32,152 bases of DNA, taken from the NCBI GenBank assembly GCA_018895795.1, contig JAHINZ010000425.1, positions 1 to 32,152 of the forward strand. The letters are read 5' to 3'. Shown piece after piece: positions 4,799 to 10,237 of this stretch. The position numbers and the translations under genes were made by a program. Positions within the stretch are counted from its first letter, which is position 1, and each line of letters opens with the position of its first letter. The notes below the pieces were generated by a model. That model was not told where the DNA came from. It was given only the letters and a program-made list of their open reading frames with translations, and did not search any database. Source of the DNA: Alphaproteobacteria bacterium. GTDB lineage: Bacteria; Pseudomonadota; Alphaproteobacteria; Caulobacterales; Caulobacteraceae.

Positions 4799-4875
4799 GA
4801 GGCGCGTCGGCCGTCGCCTTACGAGGCGGCCGCGCCCGAGATGGCGGCGCGGGTCCTGGCGGTTCGCCTTGAGCC

Positions 4876-5364
4876 TCAGGCCCAGGCCGGCGTCCAGCCC
4901 GCCGCGCCGTCGTCACCCTTGGCGGGAGGGGCCTTCGGGCGGCGAACCCGGCCTTGGCGCGCGCGACCGCCCCGGCGTGCCCGGTCCATGATCCTGGACG
5001 CGCGCGCCCGCGCCCAGGCCAGGGCCGATCGGGCGAGGTCTCGCAGTCCGCGCAGGCGCGCGGCGGCGGCGATCAGGACGACGGTGGCGAAGAGGTCCAC
5101 GAAGGTCGCGACGTCGAAGGCCATCAGCCAGGCCAGACCCTCGGGCAGCATCAGGCTCAGCAGACGCAGGCCTTCGGATTCGAACAGCAGGGCGGCCAGC
5201 AGGGTGACGCCCAGGACGACCTTGGCCAGGATGATCTGGCCCAGCGTCAGGCGTGACAAAGCCTGGGCCGGCGCCTCGATCAGCAAACGTCGCAGGCGCT
5301 TACCCATGTCTGTTTCCGTACAGAGCAAGATCGCGATCAAGGTCGCCAGCAGCATGAACGTCAT
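4876..5364 (-). CDS. Hypothetical membrane protein
   Basis: Hydrophobic stretches MTFMLLATLIAILLC, IILAKVVLGVTLLAALLF, FVDLFATVVLIAAAA; charged C-terminus. Confidence 0.65.
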   Translation of the reverse strand: MTFMLLATLIAILLCTETDMGKRLRRLLIEAPAQALSRLTLGQIILAKVVLGVTLLAALLFESEGLRLLSLMLPEGLAWLMAFDVATFVDLFATVVLIAAAARLRGLRDLARSALAWARARASRIMDRARRGGRARQGRVRRPKAPPAKGDDGAAGWTPAWA

Positions 5365-5495
5365 GTCGAAAGCCCCTGACGATCCTGGTGTGCGCACCGG
5401 AGGTAGGCGTCGTTGTCGGGCGGAACAAGAGCAGGGCGGCGGCCCAGCCGGCGGCCGCCCGCCAAGGCGGTCGTCGCGTACAGGTCCTGGCTCAA
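5361..5495 (-). CDS. Possible 44-aa ORF exactly filling the intergenic gap
   Basis: TTG start overlaps upstream stop (TTGA) and TGA stop overlaps next ATG (ATGA); MSQDLYATTALAGGRRLGRRPALVPPDNDAYLRCAHQDRQGLST. Confidence 0.25.
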   Translation of the reverse strand: MSQDLYATTALAGGRRLGRRPALVPPDNDAYLRCAHQDRQGLST

Positions 5496-6847
5496 GGCTT
5501 GGCCGGAGCTTTGGCCGCCCCATCGCCTTCGCCGGTCGGCGGCGGGGCCTCCCAAAGGAAGCGGATCGGCAGGGTGATCCGCAAGCCCTCGACGGGGTCA
5601 CCCTCGGTGGTCCAGGGGTTCATGCGTATCAATCCGGCCGCCTTGATCGCGGCGGCGGCGAAGTCCAGGCCGGCCGGCTCCTCGCGAACGGCCTGGCACT
5701 CGACCAGATCGCCGGTGGCCGTGAGCGCACAGGAGGCCGCCCCCAGACCCGTCGTGACGCCGGCGGCGGCCGCCGCTTCGGGATAGACCTGGGCCATGCC
5801 TTCTATGGTGAGGGTACGGATCCAGCGCGGCTTGCTCAGCTTGCGGCCCTCCGGCCCGGCGGGGTTTCGGAAACGGAAAGGGATGTCGACCTTGTAGTCG
5901 TACAGGGACTTGGCCTGGTCGCTCTCGAAGACGACCTGAAACGATCGCGACAGGCTCTTGGCCGCCTTGCCAAAGCCCTTGCCCATGGGGTTTTCCGAGA
6001 TCACGTCGCAGGCGTGGGGAACCCCTCTCTTGTCCAGGTCGCAGCGCAGGACCGCGTGGCCGGTCGGGGCGTCGCCGGCCTCGGCGGTGGGCCAGGCCGC
6101 CGCCACCTGGGCCGCCGACGGCGCCACGGTCCAGGGCGGATCGAGCACAAGGCTCTGGCCCGCGGGTCTGACCCCTCCGTTGGCCAATCCAGCCCAGACC
6201 ACCGGGACCGTCACCTCGCCGCCCGGCACGGGCTTGCCGCCCCGGATCTTGGGGCTCATGCGAAATTGCGGGGCCAGTTGCAGCGCGGCCTGCCCGAATC
6301 CCAGACCCTGCGGCTCCTCGGACAGAACCTTGCAGGCCTCCAGGAAGCCCTCGACCGTGATCACACACCCGATCGTCGCCCGGCCGTCGCGGCCGGCCTT
6401 GATCGCGGCGGTCGGGAAGGCGCCGGCCAGGGCGCTCGAGGTCGGCTTCTTGACCCAGTCTGGATTGGCGTCGCCGGGGGCGAGGAACTGGAAGCTGGTC
6501 TTCACCGGTCGACCCGCGACCGGCGCGCCCGAGGCGTCCTTGGTCTTGATCCGCTCCTTGCCGACCAGTTGCAGGGCCGCCGCCCCAAAGCCCAGACCGA
6601 CGGGGTCCTCCTTGAAGATCGTACAGTCGTTGAGCTTGCCATCGCTTCCGGCCACGCAGGCCAGGGTGGCGTAACCCGAGATCTTCCGTTCGAAAGCCGC
6701 CGGGGGATAGGCCGCCTTCACATCAGCCGGCTTGGCGACGGCGACAAACTGCGGCCTCCAGCCGGCGGCGTCATCATCATCGTCCAGCGCCAAGGCCGGG
6801 CCGACGATCGCGGCGAAGACGATCGCCAGGGTCCATGAACGCCACAT
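5492..6847 (-). CDS. Secreted protein with four tandem TonB-C-terminal-like repeats
   Basis: Signal peptide MWRSWTLAIVFAAIVGPALA; four repeats of C-x10-C ... (E/K)(E/D/N)P.G..F..AA. Confidence 0.75.
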   Translation of the reverse strand: MWRSWTLAIVFAAIVGPALALDDDDDAAGWRPQFVAVAKPADVKAAYPPAAFERKISGYATLACVAGSDGKLNDCTIFKEDPVGLGFGAAALQLVGKERIKTKDASGAPVAGRPVKTSFQFLAPGDANPDWVKKPTSSALAGAFPTAAIKAGRDGRATIGCVITVEGFLEACKVLSEEPQGLGFGQAALQLAPQFRMSPKIRGGKPVPGGEVTVPVVWAGLANGGVRPAGQSLVLDPPWTVAPSAAQVAAAWPTAEAGDAPTGHAVLRCDLDKRGVPHACDVISENPMGKGFGKAAKSLSRSFQVVFESDQAKSLYDYKVDIPFRFRNPAGPEGRKLSKPRWIRTLTIEGMAQVYPEAAAAAGVTTGLGAASCALTATGDLVECQAVREEPAGLDFAAAAIKAAGLIRMNPWTTEGDPVEGLRITLPIRFLWEAPPPTGEGDGAAKAPAKP

Positions 6848-7167: not shown

Positions 7168-7327
7168 GCGAGTCTCCTGTTTCGGGCGAGCGTCAGGCCG
7201 CCTGATCAGACAGGACGACGCGCTAGGCCCGCCCCCTCAAGGCACTGTTCGCGCGTCGGCGGGAGCGCGCGCGATTGGCGCGGCGCGAAGGGTTTGCGGC
7301 GCCCAGGGTCCGGCCTATGTTCCGCCC

Positions 7328-10237
7328 ATGACCGACACCGCCGCCCCCGCCGATTCCGCGCCCGATCACGCTCACGTCCAGACCCTGACCCAGGACGGTC
7401 CGACGATCCGGCTGTTTCTGGTCGACGGCTCGGCCTATCTGTTTCGCGCCTATCACGCCCTGCCGCCCCTGACCCGCAAGAGCGACGGCCTGCCGGTCGG
7501 GGCGGTGCAGGGCTTCTGCAACATGCTGTGGAAGCTGTTGCGTGACATGCAGGGCGACGCGCCCACCCACCTGGCGGTGATCTGGGACCATGCGGAGAAG
7601 ACCTTCCGCAACGACCTCTATGACAAGTACAAGGCCCACCGGCCGCCGGCGCCCGAGGACCTGATCCCGCAGTTCGCCCTGGTGCGCGAGGCGACCCGGG
7701 CCTTCGGCGTCCCGGCCATCGAACTGGCCGGCTATGAGGCCGATGACCTGATCGCCGCCTATGCCTGCAAGGCCCGCGACCTGGGCGGCGAGGCGGTGAT
7801 CGTCAGCTCCGACAAGGACCTGATGCAGCTGGTCGGCGACGGGGTGTCGATGTTCGATCCGATGAAGGGTCTGCGCATCGATCGCGAGCAGGTGTTCGAG
7901 AAGTTCGGCGTCTATCCCGAGCGGGTGGTCGACGTTCAAGCCCTGTGCGGCGACAGCGTCGACAATGTGCCCGGCGCCCCCGGCATCGGCATCAAGACCG
8001 CCGCCCAGCTGATCAATGACTATGGCGATCTGGACACCCTGCTGGCCCGGGCCGGCGAGATCAAGCAGCCCAAGCGCCGCGAGACCCTGATCGACTTCGC
8101 CGACCAGATCCGACTGTCGCGACGTCTGGTGCAGCTGGACTGCGACACGCCCCTGCCCGAGCCGATCGCCGACCTGACCGTGCGCGAGCCCGACAAGGAC
8201 GTCCTGGCCGCCTTCCTGGAGCTGATGGAGTTCCGCTCTTTGGCCCGCCGGGTCGGCGACGGCAACGCCGCGGCCGCGCCGCGCAGCCTGGATCGCGCCC
8301 CGGGCGCCGCGCCGGGCGCGCCGGTGGCCAGCGTCTCCTATGCCGGGGCCGCCGCCCGCGCCGCCGCCGCCCAGGTCGCCGAGCCGGCGGCCATCGACCA
8401 CGCGGCCTATGTCTCCGTGCGCGATATCGAGACGCTGCAGGCCTGGGTCGCCAAGGCGACGGCCAAGGGGATCGTGGCGTTCGACACCGAAACCGACGCC
8501 CTGTCCTCGGCCACCGCCGGCCTGTGCGGCGTGTCCCTGGCGATCACGCCGGGCGAGGCCTGCTACATCCCGGTCGGCCACTGCGAGAAGGACGGCCTGG
8601 CCCTGGAGGCCGCCGCCGACCTGGAACAGATCCCGCTCGACCAGGTCATCGCCGCGCTGAAGCCGCTGCTGGAAGATCCGGCGGTGCTGAAGATCGCCCA
8701 GAACGCCAAGTACGACATCGCCGTCCTGGCGCGTCACGGCATCGCGGTGTCGCCGATCGAGGACACCATGCTGATCAGCTATGTGCTGGAGGCGGGCCTG
8801 CACGGCCACGGCATGGACGAGCTGTCGGAGCTGTGGCTGGGCCACAAGCCGATCCCGTTCAAGCAGGTGGCCGGCTCGGGCAAGGGCCAGATCAGCTTCA
8901 AGCATGTGGGGCTGAACGAGGCCACGGCCTATGCCGCCGAGGACGCCGACGTCACCCTGCGGCTCTATAACGTCCTCAAGCCACGCCTGGCCCGCGAGGG
9001 TCTGCTGACCGTCTATGAAACCCTGGAGCGGCCGCTGCCGCCGGTGTTGGCGGCGATGGAGAACGCCGGCGTCCGCGTCGATCCCGACACCCTGCGCCGG
9101 CTGTCCAACGAGTTTTCGCTGCGCATGGCCGATTTCGAGGCCCGGGCCCAGGCCCTGGTCGGGCGGCCGTTCAATCTGGGCAGCCCCAAACAGATCGGCG
9201 ATGTGCTGTTTGGCGAAATGGCCCTGAAGGGCGGCAAGAAGACCGCCACCGGCCAATGGTCGACCGACAGCGATGTGCTCGAAGCCCTGGCCCTGGAGCA
9301 TGAGCTGCCGCGCGTGCTGCTGGACTGGCGCCAGCTGTCCAAGCTGAAGGGCACCTATACCGACAACCTGATCGCGGCGATCGCGCCGTCGACGGGCCGG
9401 GTCCACACCTCCTACGCCCTGGCCGCCACCACGACGGGGCGATTGTCGTCGTCCGATCCCAACCTGCAGAACATCCCGATCCGCACCGAGGAAGGCCGCA
9501 AGATCCGCAAGGCCTTCATCGCGGGTCCCGGCAATGTGCTGATCAGCGCCGACTACAGCCAGATCGAGCTGCGCCTGCTGGCCCATATCGGCGACATTCC
9601 GCAGCTGAAGAAGGCCTTCCAGGACGGTCTGGACATCCACGCCATGACCGCCTCTGAGATGTTCGGCGTGCCGATCGAGGGCATGCCCAGCGACGTGCGT
9701 CGGCGGGCCAAGGCGATCAATTTCGGCATCGTCTACGGCATCAGCGCCTTTGGCCTGGCCAACCAGCTGGGCATCGGCCAGGGCGAGGCCGGGGCCTATA
9801 TCAAGACCTATTTCGAGCGCTTCCCCGGCATCCAGGCCTATATGGACGCCACCAAGGCCTTCGTGCGCGAGCACGGCTATGTGACCACCATCTTCGGCCG
9901 CAAGATCAACATTCCCGAGGTCCACGCCAAGTCGGCCGCCATGCGGCAGTTCTCGGAGCGGGCGGCGATCAACGCCCCGATCCAGGGCGCGGCGGCCGAT
10001 GTGATGCGCCGGGCCATGGTGCGGATGCCGGGCGCCCTGAAGGCGGCCGGGCTGTCGGCCCGGATGCTGCTGCAGGTGCACGATGAACTGGTCTTCGAGG
10101 CCCCCGCCGATGAGGCCGAGGCCACCTGCGCCGTCGCCCGCCAGGTGATGGAAAACGCCGCCGAGCCGGCCGTGGCGATCGCCGTGCCGCTGACCGTCGA
10201 GGCCCGGGCCGCGCTCAACTGGGACGAGGCCCACTGA
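7328..10237 (+). CDS. polA: DNA polymerase I
   Basis: 5' nuclease domain (LFLVDGSAYLFRAYHAL), 3'-5' exo (VAFDTETDALSS), polymerase (SADYSQIELRLLAHIG, RRAKAINFGIVYGISAFGLA, LLQVHDELVFE). Confidence 0.97.
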   Translation: MTDTAAPADSAPDHAHVQTLTQDGPTIRLFLVDGSAYLFRAYHALPPLTRKSDGLPVGAVQGFCNMLWKLLRDMQGDAPTHLAVIWDHAEKTFRNDLYDKYKAHRPPAPEDLIPQFALVREATRAFGVPAIELAGYEADDLIAAYACKARDLGGEAVIVSSDKDLMQLVGDGVSMFDPMKGLRIDREQVFEKFGVYPERVVDVQALCGDSVDNVPGAPGIGIKTAAQLINDYGDLDTLLARAGEIKQPKRRETLIDFADQIRLSRRLVQLDCDTPLPEPIADLTVREPDKDVLAAFLELMEFRSLARRVGDGNAAAAPRSLDRAPGAAPGAPVASVSYAGAAARAAAAQVAEPAAIDHAAYVSVRDIETLQAWVAKATAKGIVAFDTETDALSSATAGLCGVSLAITPGEACYIPVGHCEKDGLALEAAADLEQIPLDQVIAALKPLLEDPAVLKIAQNAKYDIAVLARHGIAVSPIEDTMLISYVLEAGLHGHGMDELSELWLGHKPIPFKQVAGSGKGQISFKHVGLNEATAYAAEDADVTLRLYNVLKPRLAREGLLTVYETLERPLPPVLAAMENAGVRVDPDTLRRLSNEFSLRMADFEARAQALVGRPFNLGSPKQIGDVLFGEMALKGGKKTATGQWSTDSDVLEALALEHELPRVLLDWRQLSKLKGTYTDNLIAAIAPSTGRVHTSYALAATTTGRLSSSDPNLQNIPIRTEEGRKIRKAFIAGPGNVLISADYSQIELRLLAHIGDIPQLKKAFQDGLDIHAMTASEMFGVPIEGMPSDVRRRAKAINFGIVYGISAFGLANQLGIGQGEAGAYIKTYFERFPGIQAYMDATKAFVREHGYVTTIFGRKINIPEVHAKSAAMRQFSERAAINAPIQGAAADVMRRAMVRMPGALKAAGLSARMLLQVHDELVFEAPADEAEATCAVARQVMENAAEPAVAIAVPLTVEARAALNWDEAH

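Follow-up and report, generated by a model that had tools for sequence, protein, structure and literature searches.

A secreted protein with four tandem TonB C-terminal domains and no motor-coupling parts from a Caulobacter-type bacterium

Overview

The 32,152-nucleotide stretch of DNA analysed here (hereafter 'the window') carries, at positions 5492..6847 of its minus strand (stop codon included), a gene for a secreted protein of 451 amino acids that presents four TonB C-terminal (TonB_C) domains in series. The four-repeat protein belongs to a small family without an assigned function and is a new form of TonB_C protein. Its anatomy is firmly that of a motor-less periplasmic protein. As for its function, we tentatively infer that the exported four-domain protein serves as a passive, multivalent periplasmic binder of extended envelope-protein segments, a reading that we hold as plausible with appreciable doubt.

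The gene and its exported product

The coordinates given in the initial annotation proved correct, although the strand had been omitted; both the length of the protein and the positions of its eight cysteines (64/75, 161/172, 269/280 and 373/384) are exactly as described there. An open reading frame for 665 amino acids on the opposite strand (4841-6838) was rejected as a gene and is regarded as an antisense effect of high G+C content. The minus-strand frame is taken as the real gene because dN/dS is below 1 (0.18-0.40 for the mature protein in eight ortholog pairs) and because orthologs align with it. Moderate purifying selection thus acts on the sequence.

By eye, the N-terminus reads as a Sec-type signal peptide (residues 1-20; 6788..6847, minus strand) with an A-L-A / L cleavage site, MWRSWTLAIVFAAIVGPALA being followed by LDDDDD, and it lacks a lipobox cysteine. 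Residues 1-24 have AlphaFold pLDDT values below 50, and a hydrophobic stretch is found at this position in almost every full-length homolog. The window protein carries neither a transmembrane anchor with the Ser/His motor-binding motif nor a Pro-rich or otherwise extended periplasmic arm: the chain is folded from about residue 30, and the first TonB_C domain starts some 10 residues past the signal peptide. That the exported protein has neither an anchor nor a Pro-rich linker, as described before, is therefore borne out by both the sequence and the AlphaFold model. At the other end, a disordered tail rich in Pro, Ala and Lys (residues 433-451; 5495..5551, minus strand; pLDDT 46-69) often ends in KP among the orthologs of alignment A1.

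Four TonB_C folds in series

In a Pfam-A scan, TonB_C (PF03544) is the sole family found, matching four stretches (E=1.1e-26) with a score of 93.5 bits where the curated cut-off is 24.6, and the NCBIfam model TIGR01352 likewise matches in four stretches. All four repeats are encoded on the minus strand. R1 (residues 30-122; 6482..6760), delimited by Pfam, fold and tree, is the extra N-terminal unit of the four-repeat proteins. R2 (residues 129-219; 6191..6463) contains the best Pfam stretch (143-218), corresponds to r1 of three-repeat relatives and is the repeat closest to the anchored TonB domain. R3 (residues 237-329; 5861..6139) and R4 (residues 340-432; 5552..5830), each delimited by Pfam, AlphaFold and tree, correspond to r2 and r3 of those relatives.

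An AlphaFold2 model computed from alignment A1 of 30 homologs (mean pLDDT 88, pTM 0.69) predicts for every unit a short lead-in strand, which carries a Trp in R2-R4, followed by two helices, a beta-hairpin, a long helix and a last strand. The best Foldseek match in the PDB is 2gsk_B, the TonB chain of the BtuB:TonB complex (TMt 0.77), and further top matches include 1u07, the FusB structure 7zc8 (rank 4) and FoxA-bound TonB (6i97). TolA structures rank far below TonB, and the Pfam scan of the window protein gave no TolA family match at E values up to 10. Pfam, AlphaFold and Foldseek thus agree on the four TonB_C folds that had been proposed from the repeats, and structure prediction returned what had been expected.

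A cysteine pair within each domain

All eight cysteines of the protein fall into four C-x10-C pairs, each placed by the model on the two strands of a hairpin. The pairs, all on the minus strand, are C64/C75 in R1 (6623..6658; strands 58-66 and 71-81), which is conserved; C161/C172 in R2 (6332..6367; strands 155-163 and 168-178) and C269/C280 in R3 (6008..6043; strands 262-271 and 277-286), both invariant in alignment A1; and C373/C384 in R4 (5696..5731; strands 366-375 and 380-390), kept in at least 90% of A1, where one row ends early at its contig end. When eight cysteines were placed at random in 430 positions, no trial out of 200,000 produced four pairs spaced exactly 11 residues apart, which puts the arrangement far beyond chance. 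The motif P-x-G-x-x-F-x-x-A-A, reported to follow every pair, is indeed present in all four repeats (DPVGLGFGAAA, EPQGLGFGQAA, NPMGKGFGKAA and EPAGLDFAAAA).

Since the two cysteines of each pair sit on the two strands of a hairpin, a cross-strand disulfide is likely, and such a bond across the first beta-hairpin very probably staples each domain; this view derives from the modelled geometry together with conservation. Across 57 multi-repeat homologs, 187 exact C-x10-C pairs are kept, and most repeats without one still have two cysteines at nearby spacing, for example C-x14-C in the L063 proteins and C-x11-C in the peptidase fusion P0003 discussed below, in keeping with what a bond would need. 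The pair is gone from a small number of divergent first repeats, and the first repeat of L114 has 78/88.

The pairs noted earlier are thus real, but they are not peculiar to the window protein. P0002 (contig C481), the anchored TonB encoded in the same genome, combines an S-x3-H-bearing transmembrane helix with a Pro-rich arm and a single TonB_C domain, and it shares the W-x3-P lead-in, the C-x10-C pair and the GFG motif. The cysteine pair is a mark of the TonB C-terminal domain throughout the clade, anchored TonB included.

Comparison with known TonB_C proteins

The window protein has in common with TonB energy transducers (E. coli TonB and P0002) the C-terminal fold, the YP motif and the core glycines, and with P0002 also the cross-hairpin cysteines. 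It differs from them in having four domains rather than one, in being exported, and in lacking the transmembrane anchor, the Ser/His motif and the Pro-rich arm. The residues that are invariant in the anchored TonBs of the clade fall into two groups. Core positions (P172, A175, G182, C188, G194, C199, E204, P206 and F211) persist in almost every repeat, whereas the charged helix-1 residues of anchored TonBs (R169, D173, R174 and R177) have disappeared from R1-R4 completely or almost completely. For example, R174 is found in none of 60 repeats from 15 orthologs, whereas 8 of 9 anchored TonBs from the clade have it; P0002 itself has Gly at this position. Placed by the YP motif, R174 aligns with Arg166 of E. 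coli TonB, a positively charged residue described as strongly conserved and as touching Glu56 in the plug of FhuA (PMC6118199). R1 and R3 have also diverged at strand-edge and loop positions.

FusB, a TonB homologue of Pectobacterium (7zc8), has a similar C-terminal fold with a different domain count and 25-28% identity. Fusions of TonB_C to MecR1/BlaR1-type (M56) peptidases use the same disulfide-type unit; the window protein has no M56 or other membrane domain, and TonB_C is all that Pfam finds in it.

The TonB family survey by Chu et al. in 2007 is reported to describe proteins with two C-terminal domains in series as membrane-anchored TonBs. Tandem TonB_C domains are common to those proteins and to the present family, which differs in having three or four domains, in being secreted and in forming an orthologous family. 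Our literature searches found no characterised secreted protein with multiple TonB_C domains, nor any four-repeat homolog with a function already assigned.

Distribution and history of the repeats

A 39-genome sample of the genus contains 14 other genomes with close four-repeat orthologs, which are 52-62% identical along their length; the copy in one (G191) is split over two contigs. Two further genomes (G176 and G150) have more distant four-repeat versions. Three-repeat relatives occur in G047, G182 and G022 and throughout Caulobacteraceae, and the number of repeats in homologs ranges from two (G154) to five (L078 and L080). The expectation in the initial annotation that TonB_C normally occurs singly consequently does not make the tandem arrangement unique, as relatives with two, three, four or five repeats are common in Caulobacteraceae. 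Outside this family of bacteria, a 240-genome sample of the class yielded no match at E<=1e-14, and a wide phylogenetic spread was rejected at this threshold; a two-domain alignment does occur in another family of the order (G224 and G251). No match was found on a plasmid. In G047, four three-repeat secreted TonB_C genes lie head to tail beside polA (L058:5353-9438; C1:96364-100305).

A maximum-likelihood tree of 63 repeat units, built on few columns and with many forks open, pairs R2 with r1 (support 97/87), R3 with r2 (98/96) and R4 with r3 (98/84) of the three-repeat proteins. R1 forms its own clade (97/92) and is the least conserved repeat (mean identity 51.8% against 59.9-61.1%). R2 lies near the anchored TonB and M56-fused domains with weak support, and some divergent repeats are placed elsewhere (e.g. 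r2 of L029, L032 and L035, and r1 of L027 and L035). Since R2-R4 match r1-r3 and R1 stands apart, the tree shows an older three-domain secreted protein that gained an N-terminal unit. A TonB-type domain of the clade would thus have been duplicated into a secreted protein consisting of R2-R4, which would later have acquired R1.

An accessory gene at a fixed site

In every Caulobacter locus examined, and also in genus g22 (G090 and G076), the gene is divergent from polA, which encodes DNA polymerase I and in the window occupies 7322..10237 of the plus strand, counted from a conserved MTD start within an open reading frame listed from 7088. The families of polA and the other neighbours were read from sequence, with Pfam scans of selected neighbours. 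Close relatives that lack the gene retain its flanks. In G082, a PEP-mutase-type neighbour directly adjoins polA, whose partial product shares 96.6% identity with its G173 counterpart; in G056 the flanks are the same as those of G142; and G188 retains a decayed remnant. The simplest history we can infer is that of an accessory gene at a fixed site that has been lost repeatedly, and an accessory function is indicated because close relatives live without the gene.

When the upstream regions were aligned, no regulatory site clearly shared among them emerged outside the polA start region. The neighbours are housekeeping genes, polA among them, and no Ton genes were seen in the Caulobacter neighbourhoods inspected for them. 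In another genus, one four-repeat gene and an exbD-tonB pair are about 3 kb apart (L095; exbD recognised by eye), and another four-repeat gene is arranged tail to tail with a gene for a TonB-dependent receptor (L098). These two links to the Ton system were judged too sporadic to indicate a Ton-gene neighbourhood.

Two other arrangements were encountered. At six loci of family F2 (L096, L097, L100, L102, L109 and L113; another genus and G043), a three- or five-repeat gene sits beside a same-strand gene for a protein of 450-490 amino acids, near a release-factor-3-like gene. The neighbouring protein, which looks helical and repetitive, has no Pfam or NCBIfam match at the loci where it was scanned (L100 and L109). 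Separately, the genome of the window encodes a protein with a single TonB_C domain (L003/L116; G000:C457:12267-12716) that has no evident signal peptide and ends in a hydrophobic segment, a possible tail anchor; the genus sample offers a single weak relative of its C-terminal part (G121).

Possible functions

Because coupling to ExbB/ExbD in the manner of TonB is impossible without an anchor or arm, the window protein should transmit no energy. What its domains may have retained is the means of gripping. The C-terminal domains of TonB and TolA engage their partners through beta-strand addition (PMC12204202), and the strand used for this purpose is present in the predicted fold, so that a binding edge is predicted by homology to have been kept. 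Under the reading we favour, the strand-addition edge of each domain would grip extended segments of envelope proteins. TonB-dependent receptors, which would be buffered or tethered, are candidate partners; the genome of the window encodes at least 56 Plug domains, and receptor counts per genome, which are lower bounds reaching at least 87, do not separate strains with the gene from those without it. The divergence of R1 and R3 suggests that not every domain need bind alike, or at all. Speaking against passive binding are the neighbourhood devoid of Ton genes and the closely related strains that live without the gene.

A rather unlikely alternative is that the protein is a sensory module, either a soluble form of or a partner to the ligand-binding domain of BlaR1/MecR1-type M56 peptidases, and that it binds an envelope signal and plays no part in nutrient uptake. 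P0003 of genome G169 (763 amino acids; L064:5284-7572) fuses an M56 peptidase with an HExxH motif (Pfam E=4.5e-25) to three TonB_C repeats, of which Pfam finds one and a profile built from the family finds three, and it is followed directly by two secreted three-repeat genes. In addition, single-domain M56-TonB_C fusions of Caulobacter (L075-L077) carry the most R2-like domain outside the family (56% for G035), and the M56-fused domains likewise lack D173, R174 and R177 of anchored TonBs. However, the fusion with three repeats was observed in a single genome, the Caulobacter neighbourhoods showed no recognisable M56 gene next to the gene, and no M56 protein in the genome of the window (87% complete) has a TonB_C match. 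These M56 assignments are by Pfam only, since a local M56 profile included TonB_C sequence and its matches to multi-repeat proteins were discarded.

It is less probable still that the protein is a dedicated competitor of TonB, whose four domains would curb import by filling the TonB boxes of TonB-dependent receptors. Receptors are abundant, the strand that pairs with the TonB box is present in the fold, and there is a laboratory precedent: a free periplasmic TonB domain made in E. coli is reported to inhibit transport by FecA and FhuA (Howard et al. 2001, reference 46 of PMC9769762). The loss of the helix-1 charges weakens this reading, as the arginine known to contact the FhuA plug is conserved in the anchored TonBs of the clade and missing from the repeats. 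This loss argues against a faithful TonB mimic and is still compatible with strand binding. Gene order shows no link to Ton genes, and G056 and G194 are among the strains that have large receptor sets and lack the gene. Competition is possible, but is not supported over sensing or wall-binding roles.

Marginally less credible than competition is a structural role in which the repeats act as wall-binding units that bridge peptidoglycan or other parts of the envelope. Association of the TonB C-terminal domain with peptidoglycan has been discussed (review PMC9022066), and both the variable repeat number (two to five) and the Lys/Pro-rich tail would suit a tether, yet Pfam finds no wall-binding motif in the window protein and no cell-wall gene was recognised beside it. 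A speculation that we rate scarcely lower combines two of these ideas: Caulobacteraceae might have made the TonB C-terminal domain into free periplasmic strand-binding arrays of two to five domains. Such arrays would act as receptors for protein segments that become exposed and would signal to BlaR1-type peptidases, thereby monitoring the envelope with components borrowed from the import machinery. Finally, an ordinary energy transducer, to which the TonB_C and TIGR01352 matches might point, is very improbable for a protein that, unlike P0002, has a cleavable-looking signal peptide and neither a Ser/His-motif anchor nor a Pro-rich arm.

Significance

Automatic annotation would label the members of this family 'TonB family protein', even though energy transmission in the manner of TonB is impossible for them. 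If strand binding by these repeats is true, the end domain of TonB could serve on its own as a gripping module, and certain Caulobacter strains would constitute a natural test of whether import is regulated by free TonB domains. The clean presence or absence of the gene at one fixed locus makes the comparison of such strains straightforward.
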